From NCBI RefSeq assembly GCF_016859125.1, contig NZ_CP069338.1, forward strand, positions 10,233,501 through 10,297,500: a stretch of 64,000 bases of DNA. Reading direction: 5' to 3'. The number at the start of each line of letters is the position of its first letter. The stretch's first letter is position 1. Shown piece by piece: positions 37,953-46,458 of this stretch. This stretch comes from Archangium violaceum (GTDB lineage Bacteria > Myxococcota > Myxococcia > Myxococcales > Myxococcaceae). A model generated the notes under the pieces. That model had not been told where the DNA came from, searched no databases, and saw nothing but the letters and a program-made list of their open reading frames with translations. The position numbers and the translations under genes were made by a program.

Positions 37953-37979
37953 GACCCGCCCTGAGTGGGAGCACTGAAC

Positions 37980-38465
37980 GTGAGTCCGTATCGAAGCAAT
38001 GGAGACAAGGCGGCGCGCCAGGAGGCCATCCGCCGCATCATCCGCGCGCACGCGGTGTCCACGCAGGAGGAGCTGGGACAGCTCCTGGCCCGCGAGGGCT
38101 TCGACGTCACCCAGGCCACGCTCTCGAGGGACCTGGCCCAGCTCGGCGCCATGCGCGTGTCGCTGCCCGAGGGCGGCACCGTGTACGGGCTGGAGGATGC
38201 CCCACCCCCCACGGGAGAGGACCGGCTGCGCGAGCTGGGGGAGATGATCCTCTCGGTGGATGACAACGAGATGTTGGTGGTGGTCCGTACCCGCCCGGGC
38301 TCCGCGCCCCTGGTGGCATCGGCCATCGATCACGCCCGGCTTCTGGAGAGCATGGGGACCATCGCCGGAGATGACACCATCTTCGCCGCCCCGGCCCGAG
38401 GGAAGTCGGCCCGTACGCTGTCCAGGAAGTTGAAAGCCCTCTTCGGAAAGGAAGAAACCCCGTGA
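37980..38465 (+). CDS. argR: Arginine repressor
   Basis: 161 residues. The N-terminal winged helix (about 10-70) carries the ArgR recognition-helix pattern VTQATLSRDLAQL, and the C-terminal domain has GTIAGDDTIF, the arginine-binding and hexamer signature. It should repress this operon, and probably other arginine genes, when arginine is plentiful. The GTG at 37980 is favoured because GGGAG stands 8 bases ahead; the frame also opens at 37965. Its stop overlaps argH by GTGA. Placing the regulator inside the biosynthetic operon gives simple feedback. Confidence 0.92.
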   Translation: MSPYRSNGDKAARQEAIRRIIRAHAVSTQEELGQLLAREGFDVTQATLSRDLAQLGAMRVSLPEGGTVYGLEDAPPPTGEDRLRELGEMILSVDDNEMLVVVRTRPGSAPLVASAIDHARLLESMGTIAGDDTIFAAPARGKSARTLSRKLKALFGKEETP

Positions 38466-39907
38466 CGATTGCCAAGACGGCCGCCTCCGGCGGGCCCGGC
38501 CTGCACCCGGAGGTGCTGGCGTTCACGAGCTCGCTGGCGCTCGACAAGGCCCTCTTGAAGGAGGACCTGGTGGGCAGCCTCGCCCACCTCACCATGCTGT
38601 CGCGCACCCGCCTCATCCCCTCGGAGGACGCGCGCGCCATCCGCGAGCAGCTCGTGGCCATCTGGAAGGGCTCGCGGGCCGGTACGCTCGTGCTCGCCGA
38701 CGAGGAGGACGTGCACATGGCCGTGGAGGCGGAGATCACCCGCGTCCTCGGGGAGCGCGCGGGCCTCCTGCACACCGCTCGTTCGCGCAACGACCAGGTC
38801 GCGTTGGATCTGCGCCTGCACGTGCGTGAGAAGGTGGCCGAGGCCCTGGGCGAGCTGGCGAAGCTGCTGGAGGGCCTGGCCGCCCGGGCCGAGGCGGAGC
38901 GCGGCACCCTGCTGCCCTCGTACACGCACCGTCAGCGGGCGCAGCCCATCTCCCTGGCGTACCTGCTGTGCGGCTACGGGGCCATGTTCACCCGGGACGT
39001 GGACGCGCTCGGCTTCGTGCTGGAGCAGGTGGCCGCGCTGCCCCTGGGCGTGGGCGCCATCGGCGGCACGTCGCTGCCCATCGACCGCGAGGTGACGCGC
39101 GAGCTGCTGCGCTTCCCGCGCCTGACGATGAACGGGCTGGACACGGTGGGCGATCGCGACTTCGCCATGGACTTCGCCTACGCGGCCATGCGCTCGCTGC
39201 TGCACGCCAGCCGGGTGGCCACGGACTTCTACGACTTCGCCTCGCCCGAGTTCGGCTTCGTGAAACTGGACGGGGAGATCGCCTGCGGCTCGAGCATGAT
39301 GCCGCAGAAGCGCAACCCGGACGTCTTCGAGCTCATCCGCGGCAAGTCCGGACGGGCGGTGGGCAACCTCAACACCCTGGCGGTGCTCGTGAAGGGCCTG
39401 CCGGGCGGGTACAGCCGGGATCTGCAGGAGGACCGGCAGGTGCTGCTGGAGACGGGGCCGCTGCTGACGAGCGTGCTGTCCATGCTGCACCTGGCGCTGG
39501 GCAAGGTGCACTTCGACCGGGAGCGGTGCTTCGCGGCGGTGGAGTCGGACTACATGCAGGCCACGGACGTGGCCGAGGCACTGGCGATGAAGGGCATCCC
39601 CTTCCGCACTGCCTACAAGGCGACAGGAGCGCTGGTGCGGGCATGCCAGGAGCGTGGCCTGCCGCTGGCCAAGGTGACGCTGGAGCTGGCACAGTCAGTG
39701 GATCCCCGCTTCGACGCCGAGGTGCTGAAGAGCGCGGATCCGCGACGCGCGGTGGAGCGCAAGGCCAACGCCGGAGGCACCGGACCGGCGTCGGTGGAGA
39801 AGCAGATTTCCGAGCTGAAGTCCCACGCGGCCCGGGCCCGGACGATGGCGGATGCCGTCCCCCGGCTCGCGGCCCTCTTCGATTCGTTGCAGGAGGCAGC
39901 ACTGTGA
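38462..39907 (+). CDS. argH: Argininosuccinate lyase
   Basis: 481 residues of the fumarase/aspartase superfamily. Landmarks are LLHTARSRNDQVALDLRL, SYTHRQRAQPISLAYLL (catalytic His region) and the superfamily signature GSSMMPQKRNPD, whose Ser is the catalytic base. It splits argininosuccinate into arginine and fumarate, the last step of the pathway. The GTG at 38462 overlaps the argR stop, and its own stop overlaps argF by GTGA. The N-terminal 20 residues are shorter and less conserved than in E. coli ArgH. argG, which makes its substrate, is not in the operon. Confidence 0.94.
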   Translation: MTIAKTAASGGPGLHPEVLAFTSSLALDKALLKEDLVGSLAHLTMLSRTRLIPSEDARAIREQLVAIWKGSRAGTLVLADEEDVHMAVEAEITRVLGERAGLLHTARSRNDQVALDLRLHVREKVAEALGELAKLLEGLAARAEAERGTLLPSYTHRQRAQPISLAYLLCGYGAMFTRDVDALGFVLEQVAALPLGVGAIGGTSLPIDREVTRELLRFPRLTMNGLDTVGDRDFAMDFAYAAMRSLLHASRVATDFYDFASPEFGFVKLDGEIACGSSMMPQKRNPDVFELIRGKSGRAVGNLNTLAVLVKGLPGGYSRDLQEDRQVLLETGPLLTSVLSMLHLALGKVHFDRERCFAAVESDYMQATDVAEALAMKGIPFRTAYKATGALVRACQERGLPLAKVTLELAQSVDPRFDAEVLKSADPRRAVERKANAGGTGPASVEKQISELKSHAARARTMADAVPRLAALFDSLQEAAL

Positions 39908-40809
39908 AGCGCGATTTCCTCACCCTGGCGGACCGCACCGAGGCCGAGTACCGGGCCCTCTTCGACCGGGCGCACGCGCTCAAGGCGAGCCGCAAGCGCA
40001 AGGAAGTGGTGACGACGCTGGCCGGGCGGCACCTGGTGCTGGTGTTCGAGAAGTCCTCGACGCGCACGCACCTGTCGTTCGAGGCGGCCATGTACCAGCT
40101 GGGCGGCACGGTGACGACGATCACCGCGGGCAGCAGCCAGATCGCGCGCGGCGAGACGATCGAGGACACGGCGCGGGTCATCTCCGGCTACGCGGACTGC
40201 ATCATGTTCCGCACCTTCGGAGACGAGCGGCTGACGGCGTTCGCCAAGGCGTCGCGGGTGCCGGTGATCAACGGCCTGTCCGAGGGCGGGCACCCCGTGC
40301 AGGTGCTGACGGACCTGTTCACGGTGGAGGAGCGGCTGGGGAGCGTGAAGGGCAAGACGGTCGCCTTCGTGGGCGACTGCGCGAGCAACATGGGCCTGTC
40401 CTTCGTGGAGGCCACGAAGTACTTCGGGTTCAGCCTGCGGCTGGGGTGCCCCGAGGGCTACCGGCCGGCCGCGTCGGCACTGGCTGACGCCGGGGCGCGC
40501 GTGCTCGTGACGGCGGACGCCACCGAGGCGGTGCGCGGGGCGGACGTGGTGGTGACGGACGTGTGGACGAGCATGGGCCAGGAGGCCGAGTCGGCGAAGC
40601 GCAAGAAGGACCTGCACGACTACCAGCTCAACGAGGCGCTGCTGGCCAAGGCGAACCCGGGAGCCATCGTGCTGCACTGCCTGCCGGCGCACCGCGGCGA
40701 GGAGATCACCGACGGCGTCGTCGACGGCGCGCAGTCGGCGGTCTGGGACGAGGCGGAGAACCGCATGCACGTCCAGAAGGCCCTGCTGGAGCAGCTCATC
40801 CTGGGCTGA
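39904..40809 (+). CDS. argF: Ornithine carbamoyltransferase
   Basis: 301 residues with the carbamoyl-phosphate site FEKSSTRTHLSFE (STRT), MFRTFGD, the ornithine-site motif LHCLPAHRGEEI, and DVWTSMGQE. It joins carbamoyl phosphate to ornithine to make citrulline, in the cytoplasm, as a trimer. GTG start at 39904, overlapping the argH stop. It is the last gene of the operon. Carbamoyl phosphate would come from the synthase whose large subunit is encoded at 49565-52792. Confidence 0.95.
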   Translation: MKRDFLTLADRTEAEYRALFDRAHALKASRKRKEVVTTLAGRHLVLVFEKSSTRTHLSFEAAMYQLGGTVTTITAGSSQIARGETIEDTARVISGYADCIMFRTFGDERLTAFAKASRVPVINGLSEGGHPVQVLTDLFTVEERLGSVKGKTVAFVGDCASNMGLSFVEATKYFGFSLRLGCPEGYRPAASALADAGARVLVTADATEAVRGADVVVTDVWTSMGQEAESAKRKKDLHDYQLNEALLAKANPGAIVLHCLPAHRGEEITDGVVDGAQSAVWDEAENRMHVQKALLEQLILG

Positions 40810-40850
40810 TGTCAATTTCCAGGGATCTGATTAAAACCCGCAATAATTGA

Positions 40851-40930
40851 AAGACGAGGTGTGCTTCTGCATCATGCCGGGAGTCGTCCCCCCCTCCCGG
40901 AGAGCCGTCCGTGAAAGCACACCTCGTCTT
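40851..40930 (+). promoter_or_regulatory. 16-bp perfect inverted repeat around the start codon of the beta-helix gene
   Basis: aagacgaggtgtgctt (40851-40866) and aagcacacctcgtctt (40915-40930) are exact reverse complements, 48 bases apart. Between them ccgggag (40877-40883) pairs with ctcccgg (40894-40900). In mRNA the GGAG ribosome site (40899-40902) and the GTG start (40911-40913) would be enclosed by nested stems, and the right arm covers codons 2-7, including a TTA leucine codon, very rare in this DNA. The pairing is certain; translational control, or use as a DNA operator, is inferred. Confidence 0.6.
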
Positions 40931-42743
40931 ACGTCTCGTTCTTCCGCTCTCCGCGCTCGGAGTCCTGGGCGCCTGCGGCCCACAGCTCGGCCCCGATGAC
41001 GCCGACGGAACCGCGGGGCCGGAGAGCACCCTCTCCCTCGCCCTGACCTCGGTGACGCTCACCTCGCCGCCCGCGAATGCTCGCGTGCAGGGCACGGTGA
41101 CGCTCCAGGCTCGGGCCGAGGGGCCCATCCAGAACATCGAGTTCTTCCGTGGGACGCCCCCGGGGACCTTCATCGGCCGAGCCACCCTGCTCAATGGGGT
41201 GGGCACGTACCACTGGAACACCGACGGCCTGCCGCGAGGTGCCATCGATGTCTTCGCCAAGGCCTGGGACGCTCCCGCGGGCCAGCCGGCCAACGAGTGG
41301 CGCTCGGCCTCGGTGCGGATCAACCTCGTCGACGATACGGGGTGGTCCCCGCTCAGCGTGATGACGGTGGTGGACCCGATGAACCACGGCGCGGCGGGCA
41401 ACGGAACCACCGATGACCTGAATGCCCTGAAGGCCGCCGTCAACGCGCTCCCCACCAAGGGAGGCATCGTCTACCTGCCCCCGGGCAGGTCCTTCCGCAA
41501 GACGAACCTCCTCGTCGTCACCAAGAGCCACGTGAAGTTCTGGGCGCCCAACCGCCAGGCGGACATCAACGCCACGGTGAGCGGCACCCCCCGGCGCCAG
41601 TCCATCCTCTGCCGCAACAACACCGGCTGCGGTTTCTTCGGCCTGAAGTTCCGCTCGGATGCGGCGGCGCGCTTCAGCGCCCTCGAGGACCACCAGATCA
41701 GCATCGACCACGGCAGTGACGTGGAGGTGGTGGGCGTCGAGGTGACCAACTCGGCCGCCACCGGCGTCTTCTTGTATGGCTCCCAGCGCAGCTACATCGA
41801 GGGCAACTACATCCACCACACCTGGGCGGATCACATCCACCACACGGACGGCGCGAGCCAGTCGTGGGTCTGGGACAACTTCATCTTCAACGAGGCGCCC
41901 AGCAAGGGTGATGACGGGGTTGCCTGCGTCACCTACGGGCCCGACTCTCCTCGCTGCGGCGACATGGAGTGGTGGAACAACACCCTGCTGGGCTCGGGAG
42001 GGGGACGCGGCTATGCGGTCATCGGCGGCAATGACATCGACATCCACCACAACTGGGGCATCGGGGTGGCGGGAGCGGGTGTCATCGTGGCTTCCGAGTT
42101 CGGCCGCAACGGCGAATACAACACCGCCTCCAGCCAGAACATCACCATCCACGACAACTGGATTACCCGCAGCGCGCACTCCATCGGGCATCCGGGCATC
42201 CTCGTGAGCGGAAAGAACCCGAACGCCGAGCCGCTCACGCACCTGCGCCTGACGAACAATGTCTCCGCGAACAATGTGAGCGGCCAGAACTACCGCGCGG
42301 AGGGCTCCTATACAGACGTGGTGAGCACCGGGCTGTCCCAGGACGTCAACGCCCTCCCCTCGCCCATGCCGACGCTGGCGAGCGTCAAGCTGCGTGACAC
42401 GTCCATTCTCAAGACGCGCGATGTGTCCTTCGTGGCCTCGACCTACCAGCGAGGCCTCTACCGGATTCACGTCCGGCGCAACCCCTCGGGCTCGGGCTTC
42501 CAGCAGCGCTTCGAGTACGTGGTGAAGGGCAGCGCTTCGGACGTGCAGTCCTTCCTCTCGGCGCGACAGGCGGCCGGGGATACCGTGGTGGGCAGCCGCC
42601 TGGTGGGCACGACCTCCTACGCCGTCCTGCTCTCGCCGTCACCTCAGACCGTCCCCTCGGCGCTCAGCGGCGTCTCCTTCCAGACCCTGCGGGCCGGAGA
42701 TAACGATGGATCGCTCAGCTGGCTCTGGGCACTCCTCATGTGA
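40911..42743 (+). CDS. Parallel beta-helix (pectate-lyase-like) lipoprotein with N-terminal Ig-like domain
   Basis: 610 residues. A signal peptide ends in lipobox LGAC. Residues about 40-135 look like a bacterial Ig-like unit (VTLTSPPANARVQGTVTLQA). The next section, about 145-450, is a right-handed parallel beta helix of the pectate-lyase superfamily: GAAGNGTTDDLNALKAAVNA and GGIVYLPPGRSF begin it, and repeated short strands with Asn and His ladders follow (YIEGNYIHHTWADHIHHTDG, ITIHDNWITRS). A SPOR-like or similar tail (FVASTYQRGLYRIHVRR) closes the protein. Probable extracellular polysaccharide lyase or hydrolase, or a binding protein. GTG start with a leader structure over it. Confidence 0.78.
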   Translation: MKAHLVLRLVLPLSALGVLGACGPQLGPDDADGTAGPESTLSLALTSVTLTSPPANARVQGTVTLQARAEGPIQNIEFFRGTPPGTFIGRATLLNGVGTYHWNTDGLPRGAIDVFAKAWDAPAGQPANEWRSASVRINLVDDTGWSPLSVMTVVDPMNHGAAGNGTTDDLNALKAAVNALPTKGGIVYLPPGRSFRKTNLLVVTKSHVKFWAPNRQADINATVSGTPRRQSILCRNNTGCGFFGLKFRSDAAARFSALEDHQISIDHGSDVEVVGVEVTNSAATGVFLYGSQRSYIEGNYIHHTWADHIHHTDGASQSWVWDNFIFNEAPSKGDDGVACVTYGPDSPRCGDMEWWNNTLLGSGGGRGYAVIGGNDIDIHHNWGIGVAGAGVIVASEFGRNGEYNTASSQNITIHDNWITRSAHSIGHPGILVSGKNPNAEPLTHLRLTNNVSANNVSGQNYRAEGSYTDVVSTGLSQDVNALPSPMPTLASVKLRDTSILKTRDVSFVASTYQRGLYRIHVRRNPSGSGFQQRFEYVVKGSASDVQSFLSARQAAGDTVVGSRLVGTTSYAVLLSPSPQTVPSALSGVSFQTLRAGDNDGSLSWLWALLM

Positions 42744-42788
42744 CTGACGCTAGGATGGCGTGCGTCACACCCAACCAAGGAGCCGGAC

Positions 42789-43091
42789 ATGAAGAACGCG
42801 TGGCTGAGCGCGGTGGTTCTCGCGGTGGCAGTGGCAGTGAGCGCCTGCGGTGGTACGGAAGAGATGCCGCTGGAGCAGGGCAACGTCGAGCAGCAGCTGC
42901 CGCAATGTGACGAGAATGGCGAGTGCCCGCTCGGCTTCTATTGTGTGGGTGGTCCGTTCGGGACGTGCCGCCCGGGCGCCGTGGAGGCGATGCCGTATCA
43001 GTGCACCACCGAGGGCCTGTGCCCGAAGGGTTACTACTGCGACGGTGGGCCGGGCGGTATCTGCCGCAAGGGAGTCGTGCTCCCTGAGTAG
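42789..43091 (+). CDS. Small cysteine-rich lipoprotein
   Basis: 100 residues: a signal peptide with lipobox VSAC, a short acidic linker, then two similar Cys-rich units, CDENGECPLGFYCVGGPFGT and CTTEGLCPKGYYCDGGPGGI, each with four cysteines in the same spacing (counting the CR that closes each unit). The units look like small disulfide-bonded knots (EB or Dickkopf-like modules are common on myxobacterial surface proteins). ATG with AAGGAGC upstream. No function can be assigned. Confidence 0.75.
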   Translation: MKNAWLSAVVLAVAVAVSACGGTEEMPLEQGNVEQQLPQCDENGECPLGFYCVGGPFGTCRPGAVEAMPYQCTTEGLCPKGYYCDGGPGGICRKGVVLPE

Positions 43092-43133
43092 ACCCGCTGA
43101 CCTCGAGACGTGAGTCCAACGTCCAGGTCCACG

Positions 43134-43159
43134 GCTCCTGGCGATTCTTCGCCAGGAGC
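43134..43159. terminator. Bidirectional terminator between convergent genes
   Basis: gctcctggcga (43134-43144) and tcgccaggagc (43149-43159) form a perfect 11-bp stem with loop ttct. It lies between the Cys-rich lipoprotein (+) and the pirin gene (-), which converge. No strong T-run on either side, but the stem is compact. Confidence 0.55.
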
Positions 43160-43204
43160 GTAGCCATCTGGCTCACCGGGCCGTGTCCGGGAGCCAGGCG
43201 AGGC

Positions 43205-44230
43205 TCAGCGAGACGGCCGCTCGATGCGACCGTCCGCGTGCCGCGCGAACCTGCCCTCCTCGCGCCCGTGCACCGGATCGTCCCGCTTGTAGGGCCAGCC
43301 ACCGAAGCGCGTGCGCTGGTAGTCGTTGATCGCCTGCTGGATTTCCGCGCGGGTGTTCATCACGAAGGGGCCGTACTGCACGACGGGCTGCCCGATGGGG
43401 CGCCCCTGCAGCATCAGCACCTCGACCGCGCCACCCGTGGCCTCGAGCCGCAACGCGACATCGCTCCGCACGGCCATGATCTGGTGCTCACGGAAGGCAT
43501 GGTCCGCGACCTTCAGGGCGTCGCCCTCGAAGAAGTAGAGCGTGCGGTTGGCCTGGGGGTTCTTCGCCGGAGGCAGCGTCCACGTCGCGCCGGGCTCCAG
43601 GCGGACGGTCCAGATGGCCACGTCGGTGTCGGGACGCGAGGCCCACGAGCGGGGCGGAGGCGGCGGCGCGCGCCGGCCCTCGAGCTCACCTGCGGCGACC
43701 GTCACCTCGGTGCGCCGGCCCGCCGCGTCGGTGAACGTGAGGCGCGGGATGTCCTGGCTCCAGAGCATGGAGAAGTGCGGCGGCGCGTGCTTGTCCTCGG
43801 CCGGGAGGTTCAGCCAGATCTGGAACAGCTCGGTCGGGTTGGGCTCCCCCTTCTTCACGAGCGGGAACATCTCCGAGTGCACGATGCCCGTGCCCGCGGT
43901 CAGCCACTGCACGTCGCCGTGGCCGAAGCGCGCGGTGGCGCCGAGCGAGTCCGAATGATCGATGAGCCCATTGCGCACCAACGTCACCGTCTCGAAGCCG
44001 CGGTGCGGGTGGCCCGGGAAGCCCGGCACCTGCTCACCGTGGTACATGCTCCAGCCGTCCTTGCCCCCGAAGTCCTGGCCGATGTTCCGGCCGTCCAGCG
44101 AGGCCTCCGGCCCCATGTGGTCGTTGCCGGCCGGGTACTTGTCGTCGTGGTGGACGCAAAACAGGAAAGGGTCCGCCGTCACCCAAGGGGGCGAGCCGAG
44201 CGGCAGGGTCTGGAGGATGGGGCTCTTCAT
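43205..44230 (-). CDS. Pirin family protein
   Basis: 341 residues of the bicupin pirin family. The metal site of the first cupin is visible: HPHRGFETVT gives the first two His, with a further His and Glu in GTGIVHSEMFP. The opening PPWVTADPFLFCVHHDDKYP and the second-cupin segment LYFFEGDALKVADH fit the larger bacterial pirins. Members act as quercetinases or as redox-sensing regulators, which cannot be told apart here. The ATG at 44230 is preceded by AGGAAC; upstream frame is noise. Proline-rich APPPPPRSW insertion between the two cupins. Confidence 0.87.
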   Translation of the reverse strand: MKSPILQTLPLGSPPWVTADPFLFCVHHDDKYPAGNDHMGPEASLDGRNIGQDFGGKDGWSMYHGEQVPGFPGHPHRGFETVTLVRNGLIDHSDSLGATARFGHGDVQWLTAGTGIVHSEMFPLVKKGEPNPTELFQIWLNLPAEDKHAPPHFSMLWSQDIPRLTFTDAAGRRTEVTVAAGELEGRRAPPPPPRSWASRPDTDVAIWTVRLEPGATWTLPPAKNPQANRTLYFFEGDALKVADHAFREHQIMAVRSDVALRLEATGGAVEVLMLQGRPIGQPVVQYGPFVMNTRAEIQQAINDYQRTRFGGWPYKRDDPVHGREEGRFARHADGRIERPSR

Positions 44231-44384
44231 GGCGGTTCCTGGTGTAACGATATTCGTAGGATGCGGCACGACCCGTGTGGTCGCGGGCACGAACGTCAGG
44301 CACCGGATGCGAATGGCAGGCAAGTATCGCGCATGAATGCGTTTAGCGACTCTAATCCACCCCATCACCGCTCTGGGAGGTCCC

Positions 44385-44738
44385 ATGCGTCCCGCCGTCC
44401 AGGTTCTCTCGCTGCTCATGCTGCTCGTCGTCTCCGCTTCGTGCACCGCGTCGGCGGCGCTCGACCCCACCCAGCCCCCGCCCCCGAAGACGACGGTGCA
44501 GGTGTGGAATCAAAACCCCATCGACATGACGCTCTATGTGACGAACAGGACGAATCGCATCCGATTGGGCCTGGTGCCCGGCTCGAGCACCCGCACCTTC
44601 GTCATCCCCCCACACCTGCTCCTCTCGACGAGCCTGCTCGGCTTCCAGGCCGATCCCATCGGCGGGCAGGGGCTGTCGGTCAGCGAGGAGATCCAGGTGC
44701 AACCGGGAGAGCAGGTCGGTCTCAAGCTCGGGCGCTGA
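44385..44738 (+). CDS. Small lipoprotein of unknown function
   Basis: 117 residues with a signal peptide and lipobox VSASC. The mature part, TVQVWNQNPIDMTLYVTNRT onward, looks like one small beta sandwich, a pattern seen in exported proteins that sit under the outer membrane. The start at 44385 follows GGGAGG. It converges on the carboxypeptidase gene, whose stop immediately follows. Not recognised further. Confidence 0.65.
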   Translation: MRPAVQVLSLLMLLVVSASCTASAALDPTQPPPPKTTVQVWNQNPIDMTLYVTNRTNRIRLGLVPGSSTRTFVIPPHLLLSTSLLGFQADPIGGQGLSVSEEIQVQPGEQVGLKLGR

Positions 44739-46244
44739 TCAACGCAGGGGGAGCGACACCATCGCCTCGGCGAAGCGCTCGAACACCTGGCTGGCCGTGA
44801 GCGCGGGTTGCTCGTCGATGTTGCCCAGCATCAGCGCGAAGACGACGCGCGGGTGCTCCGGATCATTGGGGCGCTCGGCGATGCCCACGTACGCCTTCTG
44901 CCCCGAGAGCGTTCCCGTCTTGGCCCGGATGAGCCCCCGCGTCCCATTGGAGAGTCCGGTTCTCGCGAGCGTGCCGTCCACTCCCGCGATGGGCAGGCTC
45001 TCCAGCAACGCGTGGGCGTACGGCTCCTTCAGGCTGGTGTAGATGACCTCCGCCAGCCCGCGCGCGGAGGCCACGTTGTAGCGGGACAGTCCGCTGCCAT
45101 CCACCGGCCGCAGCAGACGGGTGGAGATGCCCCGGCGGGTGAGCTCCTGCGCCATCGCGTCACGCAGCGCGGAGTAGCTCTCCGTGCCCGTGCGCTCGCG
45201 GGTGAAGCGCAGGCCCAGCCGCTCGGCGTAGAGGTTGAGAGACTCCTTGTTCGTCACCTTCACCAGCTCGGCGAGCGAGGGGCTGACGAACTCCAGGAGC
45301 GGCTCGCTCGTGGTGGCCGCGGGCACGGCGGCCAGATGCGGCGGAACCGGCACGCGCCAGATGCCACGCGCGGCCAGGGCGTCCTCCACGCACGCGGAGA
45401 ACAGCGCCTGGGGCTCGTCGATCGCGACGCGCATCGACGCCTTGCGCGGGCACTGCTCCGCCGTCGAGCGCCAGACGCAGCGCATGCGCCCGGTGCCCCG
45501 CTCGCGCACGCAGCCAAGCCCCGCCCGCTGGGCGTTCGCCTCGAGGTACACGACGGTGGGGAGCTCGTTGAAGGACGGGGTGTAGCGCACCGTGATGGGC
45601 CGCCGCGGCTGGGACACACAGTCCTGTCCCTCAGGGCGCTCCAGCGACAGGTCCACCACGTTCTCGCGGAAGACGAAGGGAGTTGGGGCGGCGCTGTACG
45701 CGTAGGCCGCGTCATCCCATGCCCAGCCGGGACCGAACAGGCCATGGGGCCCCTCGTCGGCGTTGCTCACCCGCACCGCCCCGAGCCACTGCCGGATGCC
45801 GCGGGCCTGGATCGCCTCGGCGAGCTGCTCGCAAGCCAGGGTGGTCTCGGGGAAGCGCCACGAGCCCAGCGACGGATCTCCCGACGCCTCCACCACGAGA
45901 TCTCCGAGGAAGAGGTTGCCCAGCTGCGAGCCCTCGAGCCGCACCGGGGTGTGGAAGCGGAAGTCCGGGCCGAAGGCGGAGAGCGCCGCGGAGGTGGACA
46001 CCACCTTCATCGTCGACGCGGGCAGCAGGCGCACGTGCTCGTGACGTGCGTAGAGCGGCGCGCCCGTCGTCGCGTCCACCAGGAAGACGCTCGCGAGCGT
46101 GCCCTCGTCCTCGACGGACTCGAAGAGCGCATCCGCCACCGAGGCCACCGTCGGGGGTGACGGCGGGCGGGTCGTCGCACGGGGGAGGCAGGCCGGCAGC
46201 ACGAGGGCCGCCAGCAGGAGCGTCGCGAACGGGGAACGTCGCAT
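44739..46244 (-). CDS. dacB: D-alanyl-D-alanine carboxypeptidase/endopeptidase (PBP4/DacB type), lipoprotein
   Basis: 501 residues with a lipobox (VLPAC). The class C penicillin-binding protein motifs are complete: SxxK as PASTMK (Ser77, Lys80), SxN in KESLNLYAERL, and KTG in RAKTGTLSGQKA. A large insertion between the first two motifs (about 110-330) is the PBP4-type domain, including SLERPEGQDCVSQPRRPITV. It trims or cleaves peptidoglycan peptides in the periplasm. The start at 46244 begins the signal peptide; upstream frame sequence has no signal features. The lipid anchor differs from soluble E. coli PBP4. Confidence 0.9.
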   Translation of the reverse strand: MRRSPFATLLLAALVLPACLPRATTRPPSPPTVASVADALFESVEDEGTLASVFLVDATTGAPLYARHEHVRLLPASTMKVVSTSAALSAFGPDFRFHTPVRLEGSQLGNLFLGDLVVEASGDPSLGSWRFPETTLACEQLAEAIQARGIRQWLGAVRVSNADEGPHGLFGPGWAWDDAAYAYSAAPTPFVFRENVVDLSLERPEGQDCVSQPRRPITVRYTPSFNELPTVVYLEANAQRAGLGCVRERGTGRMRCVWRSTAEQCPRKASMRVAIDEPQALFSACVEDALAARGIWRVPVPPHLAAVPAATTSEPLLEFVSPSLAELVKVTNKESLNLYAERLGLRFTRERTGTESYSALRDAMAQELTRRGISTRLLRPVDGSGLSRYNVASARGLAEVIYTSLKEPYAHALLESLPIAGVDGTLARTGLSNGTRGLIRAKTGTLSGQKAYVGIAERPNDPEHPRVVFALMLGNIDEQPALTASQVFERFAEAMVSLPLR

Positions 46245-46458
46245 GGGCCGGAAGGTACCGTCCCCACTCCGGGGTGTCGACGCTCGGGTGATGCACGGCG
46301 GAGGCCGTGCAGGCAATGAACAGACAGAGGCCTGTCGGGCTGTCCGCCCCCCGGCCTGCCGGGAATAAACAGACACCTTGCCCATGAATAACGCCCACGC
46401 GAGAGCGGCATCTGGTGTCGAATGGACAACGTTTCACCCCAAGCCGAGGGCCAGAACG

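Follow-up and report, generated by a model that had tools for sequence, protein, structure and literature searches.

The GTG start codon of a beta-helix gene located directly behind argF is enclosed by a perfect inverted repeat of 16 bp, which is a real and unusual feature known from a single genome. Regulation by this repeat is plausible. Our favoured reading, a tentative one, is that the repeat acts as a fold-back insulator against read-through from argF, in a manner similar to that of IS10; a functionless scar of a past rearrangement stands level with it, and both come ahead of a pair of DNA operators.

The inverted repeat and its genomic setting

We refer to the whole stretch of DNA analysed as the window; it is 64,000 nucleotides long and corresponds to positions 10233501-10297500 of the source genome, which is a single contig of 12,677,854 bases. 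The left arm (AAGACGAGGTGTGCTT, 40851-40866) and the right arm (AAGCACACCTCGTCTT, 40915-40930), both on the forward strand, are complementary at 16 of 16 positions (100%) and separated by 48 nt, which reproduces the coordinates and the full complementarity given in the first-pass annotation. The loop contains the GTG (40911-40913), and a single base separates this codon from the right arm. The right arm starts at the second base of codon 2 and ends at the second base of codon 7 (TTA, 40929-40931); its reported reach into codons 2-7 is correct. An inner 7-bp stem (40877-40883 paired with 40894-40900, forward strand), which has a 10-nt loop and is present in the computed folds, had been proposed to cover part of the ribosome site, and two of its bases do fall within the Shine-Dalgarno-like GGAGAG (40899-40904, forward strand) that can be read off the sequence. 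Within the early coding region, GCTCTCCG (40946-40953, forward strand) is complementary to CGGAGAGC (40898-40905) and is a possible anti-SD.

The gene (40911-42743, forward strand) encodes a protein of 610 amino acids with Ig-like and right-handed beta-helix domains (PF13229, PF05048, and PF17957, all above the cut-off) and an N-terminus that, judged by eye, is lipoprotein-like. Upstream of it are the arginine repressor gene (37965-38465, 3 kb away), argH, and argF, which encodes ornithine carbamoyltransferase (39904-40809, forward strand; PF00185 and PF02729) and whose stop codon is 101 nt upstream of the GTG.

When window positions 39001-45000 were compared with the DNA of five congeners, all of which possess argF, homology stopped no more than two bases from the argF stop codon in every case. 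In two of them (G003 and G005), it returns about 100 nt later at the end of a PBP4-like gene, which stops at 44739 in the window. Positions from about 40810 to 44738 thus form an accessory segment. The content behind argF is unlike that of the window in all five congeners, with the PBP4-like gene following at once in G003 and G005 and other ORFs in G002 and G004. Accessory genes may have a hot spot in the region 40810-44738.

A simple scan of 40700-41100 for terminator-like sites (a GC-rich short-loop hairpin and a T run) found none, and the sequence 40807-40850 folds no better than its shuffles (z 0.00). Each of the four congener sequences that were folded has a GC-rich hairpin beginning no more than about 20 nt from the argF stop codon (five were seen, that of G001 being viewed and left out of the folding). 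Directly behind argF, four congeners (L016, L018, L019, and L020) have a hairpin of the CCCTCTCCC...GGGAGAGGG type, shorter in L020, and this type of hairpin is missing from the window genome.

Chance expectation and conservation of the arms

A repeat of this length is unlikely to have arisen by chance in the leader. In 1500 dinucleotide shuffles of positions 40810-40960 (56% GC), the longest perfect repeat measured 5 to 10 bp and never more, with 10 bp being reached in four of them, and an extrapolation at a factor of about 4 per base would place 16 bp near 1e-6. Moreover, 8 of the 16 bases of the arm are G or C within DNA of 68% GC, where random pairs would be mostly GC. In contrast, one repeat of such length somewhere in the 12.7 Mb genome is not surprising. 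Our genome sample, 2.064 Mb at 68.4% GC, is made up of the window and 100 stretches of 20 kb each. It contains three perfect repeats with arms of at least 16 bp and loops of 31-100 nt, namely the one studied here, one of 20 bp, and one of 24 bp. For this class, Markov models of order 3 and order 5 give 0.5 and 0.08 repeats, respectively, per 2.064 Mb (12 replicates each), and these controls extrapolate to roughly 0.5-3 such repeats per genome; arms of 14-16 bp with the same range of loops are not over-represented in the sample (1 observed vs 3.6 and 3.0 expected). A chance match is a very improbable explanation of the repeat.

An order-wide search, in which at most eight first-look candidates were scored per genome, gave matches to the gene at E ≤1e-6 in 4 of 145 genomes: the source with its own gene, G106 (84% identity), G023 (about 50%), and G041 (weak and partial). 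A search of 195 genomes of the phylum with a three-row alignment returned three matches at E ≤1e-50, which were the source, G106, and G023, and a protein search of genome_contigs found no relative. The first-pass annotation had looked to close strains for conservation of the arms. The leader of G106, the one close homologue found, does not contain the arm pair, the left arm having no counterpart there. A closer genome with the gene did not turn up in the searches, and the gene has no match in any of the five congeners (with as many as 22 candidates per genome scored). No reliable homology was found upstream of the gene between the window and the G106 leader: a strict local alignment was equalled by 170 of 500 shuffles, and a lenient one (5 of 500 shuffles as good) was not used because it fell in the wrong register, about 145-190 nt upstream of the ATG of G106. 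A different 10-bp repeat (GGATTTCACG/CGTGAAATCC) is present in the G106 leader, about 54-81 nt upstream of the ATG. The G106 homologue is also flanked by genes other than those in the window, and its lack of the repeat in that setting would be expected if the need for insulation were local.

Within the source genome, the arm pair occurs at one place and has no second copy, and the exact pair with loops of 33-63 nt was not found in genome_contigs or viral_contigs, collections from which the source genome may be missing. An 81% match in G034 (E 0.004, one of 59 genomes) was discarded, as it covers loop positions alone and such arms were not seen around it. The end of a mobile element was also rejected, given that there is no second genomic copy and that no direct repeat was seen at the borders on reading, and so was IS10 or any other insertion sequence, since the gene has beta-helix domains rather than a transposase and the arm pair has a single genomic location.

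It had further been suggested that the pairing forces a nearly unused TTA codon and seems to be under selection. The rarity of TTA stands (1 of 258 leucine codons in seven neighbourhood ORFs), but selection is not shown: the arm contains the TT alone, and the G106 protein, which starts with MRLALPLSALA, aligns its first residue with residue 7 of the window protein, encoded by this TTA. As TTA stands where G106 has its start codon, no conserved codon is overridden by it, and because its rarity falls in an extension that is absent from the relative, it is no evidence of selection on the pairing. The right arm encodes part of this extension, whose six extra residues (VKAHLV) are specified at and just before the arm and are missing from G106; the proposed selection on the pairing is not supported.

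The BLAST match to G106 opens at 40922, inside the right arm, has a gap near the start codon, and is gap-free from about 40931-40932, a weak hint that the right arm may be the older of the two. This bears on the possibility, as tentative as insulation, that the repeat is a functionless scar: one arm would have been copied as a reverse complement, into leader DNA that tolerates it, by a template switch during replication or during the arrival of the gene next to argF. Such an origin would give perfect pairing in one step, would fit the weak hint of an older right arm, and is consistent with the single genomic location of the repeat, its absence from the G106 leader, its position close to the edge of the accessory segment, and the existence of the 20-bp and 24-bp long-loop repeats in the sampled genome. 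Excerpts of PMC8794818 describe template switching as a source of perfect hairpins, which resemble the present case in being perfect reverse-complement repeats that are so far confined to one lineage, and differ from it in that here there is no ancestral sequence showing the event. It is harder to reconcile a scar with the fact that the repeat spans exactly the promoter-like site, the ribosome site, and the start codon; furthermore, no sequence with a single arm was seen that would reveal the event. If the repeat is a scar, it would illustrate how a gene start can acquire a perfect hairpin that selection did not favour.

Predicted promoter, folding of the leader, and possible insulation from argF

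The leader contains a single predicted sigma-70-like promoter, TTGAAA-17 nt-CATCAT (40847-40875, forward strand, 9/12 match), from which transcription would start near 40882. Sites matching at 9/12 are scarce: scanning both strands of the window yields 3, and the sampled genome yields 49 over 4000 strand-kb, so that about 0.001 would be expected per 100-nt leader, or more if AT-rich leaders are enriched in them. The scan covers sigma-70-like promoters, and when relaxed to 8/12 it found nothing in the 300 nt upstream of the G106 gene, which indicates that it may miss or misplace promoters here. A start near 40882 would leave the left arm, with 40853-40866 in the predicted promoter spacer, outside the gene's own mRNA, so that both arms would be found only in RNA reading through from argF. 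A transcript starting after 40866 had been named in the first-pass annotation as the observation that would count against its reading, and the predicted start does fall beyond that position.

According to the insulation reading, the gene, which starts 101 nt after the end of argF and is separated from it by no terminator-like structure that the scan could find, would receive transcripts leaking in from the arginine genes. These leaked-in transcripts would carry both arms and form a 16-bp stem occupying codons 2-7 beside the start codon, and the folded read-through RNA would be poorly translated. A 16-bp stem starting two bases past the GTG would sit under the initiating ribosome, within its footprint. 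Transcripts from the gene's own promoter would begin inside the loop, near 40882, and, lacking the left arm, would escape the block. The start site, the read-through from argF, the translational block, and any selection are all elements that we infer.

The perfect 16-bp arms argue for insulation, as does the sole sigma-70-like site of the leader, whose spacer contains the left arm, together with the lack of a terminator-like site or structure behind argF, unlike in the folded congeners. The computed pairing of the arms in RNA from argF and the accessory nature of the gene also count in its favour. On the other side, a second -10-like hexamer, AATAAT at 40842, which has no -35 partner under the rules of the scan, would, if used as the -10, place the start inside the left arm. 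Rho-dependent termination may also act after argF, and the feature comes from one genome, without support from conservation or covariation.

The folding calculations give the insulation reading no clear support. The RNA fold of 40820-40960 reaches -46.7 kcal/mol (z -2.28; 2 of 200 shuffles as good), the single-strand DNA fold of 40841-40940 has a z of -6.56, and the computed pairing of the arms in RNA from argF has a mean probability of 0.97 at 37 C. However, the calculated unpaired fraction of the SD is 0.52 in read-through RNA and 0.00 in RNA from 40882, in which the SD can pair with 40946-40953. The short RNA from 40882 folds no better than its shuffles (z 0.04).

The stable fold of the RNA and of the single-strand DNA, with the SD and the start codon inside the hairpin, agrees in part with the RNA switch proposed in the first-pass annotation, be it a riboswitch, a thermometer, or an sRNA target in the gene's own mRNA. 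We regard such a switch as unlikely, since the predicted promoter, with its start after 40866, would exclude the left arm from that mRNA, the arms are not present in the homologue, and the Rfam covariance models gave no matches up to E 1 in 40300-41500. A thermometer in particular is unlikely, as the calculated arm pairing is nearly flat, going from 0.98 to 0.96 between 20 and 42 C.

Returning to insulation, a more specific and more doubtful scenario is that an ordinary chromosomal gene, newly located behind argF, gained a promoter-spanning repeat that silences leaked-in transcripts and spares its own, perhaps through a single template switch. If this were true, a transposon-style fold-back insulation would be used by a cellular gene, and there would be a simple, possibly one-step route for a new gene to become independent of its neighbour. 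If insulation of this type occurs outside transposons, a genome-wide search for arms flanking transcription starts would be feasible.

Comparison with operators and transposon systems

The first-pass annotation had also mentioned a DNA operator, and a regulator could occupy the left arm within the promoter spacer as well as the right arm downstream of the start site. With 64 bp, or about six turns of the helix, between the centres of the arms, looping is possible. In the loops formed by GalR-type repressors, paired operators are located around the promoter; the present case is similar in that two sites flank the promoter with near-integral helical spacing, and it differs in that no repressor has been identified here and the arms are weakly palindromic (4 of 8 pairs in each arm). 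The location of the left arm within the predicted spacer, the identity of the two 16-bp sites, and the arginine repressor encoded 3 kb upstream are in favour of operators, which we nevertheless consider less probable than insulation or a scar. The arms are unlike what we take to be the ArgR box, the G106 leader has no such site, and Pfam found no regulator family in the four genes downstream (42789-46385), two of which have no family above the cut-off. No other site with 0-1 mismatches exists in the genome. There are 10 sites with two mismatches, compared to 4 for a backwards control pattern, and all 10 overlap an ORF of at least 80 aa, a weak argument given that ORFs are everywhere in GC-rich DNA; three of them lie in one repeated gene region. 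A regulon of the 16-mer was rejected on these counts.

Fold-back inhibition of the IS10/Tn10 transposase was reportedly described by Davis, Simons and Kleckner in 1985. The likeness to the insulation reading is that one arm would lie outside the gene's own transcript and the other at the gene start, so that the start would be masked only in RNA from outside promoters. The differences are that the gene studied here does not encode a transposase, its arms do not correspond to known ends of an element and occur in one copy, and the mechanism is one that we infer. According to its title, work by Beuzon et al. in 1999 is said to deal with the repression of IS200 transposase synthesis by RNA secondary structures. 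PMC2965389 cites the 1985 study by Davis, Simons and Kleckner, and it refers to the IS200 work in connection with 5' structures by which expression driven from outside promoters is limited, which is the point of likeness with the insulation reading; IS200, however, is a transposable element, and PMC2965389 describes 5' terminators, whereas no terminator-like site was found here. Excerpts of two papers on IS10/Tn5 (PMC5006887 and PMC4265352) contain no description of the fold-back mechanism. PMC13155455 reports that perfect inverted repeats in bacteria are enriched in two places, ahead of transcription starts and behind stop codons. A published account of the present repeat was not found in the open-licence literature, which is no proof of absence.

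All three known leaders of the gene family contain a heptamer, either TTTCACG or the complementary CGTGAAA (40910-40916 in the window, L021:2373-2400, and the L022 leader), and in G106 the two forms make an inverted pair. This shared heptamer is possibly a regulator site and possibly a coincidence.

The two other long-loop repeats of the sampled genome each occur at one genomic place. The 20-bp perfect repeat (L064:4207-4323; G000:C1:11104207-11104323) has an interior of 77 nt and is flanked on both sides by the direct repeat CCGTCAC, judged by eye, and it could be a small insertion with a target-site duplication. The 24-bp perfect repeat (L134:8809-8894; G000:C1:2908809-2908894) has a loop of 38 nt, with more complementary pieces outside the arms (GGCTCTC/GAGAGCC, offset by one base).
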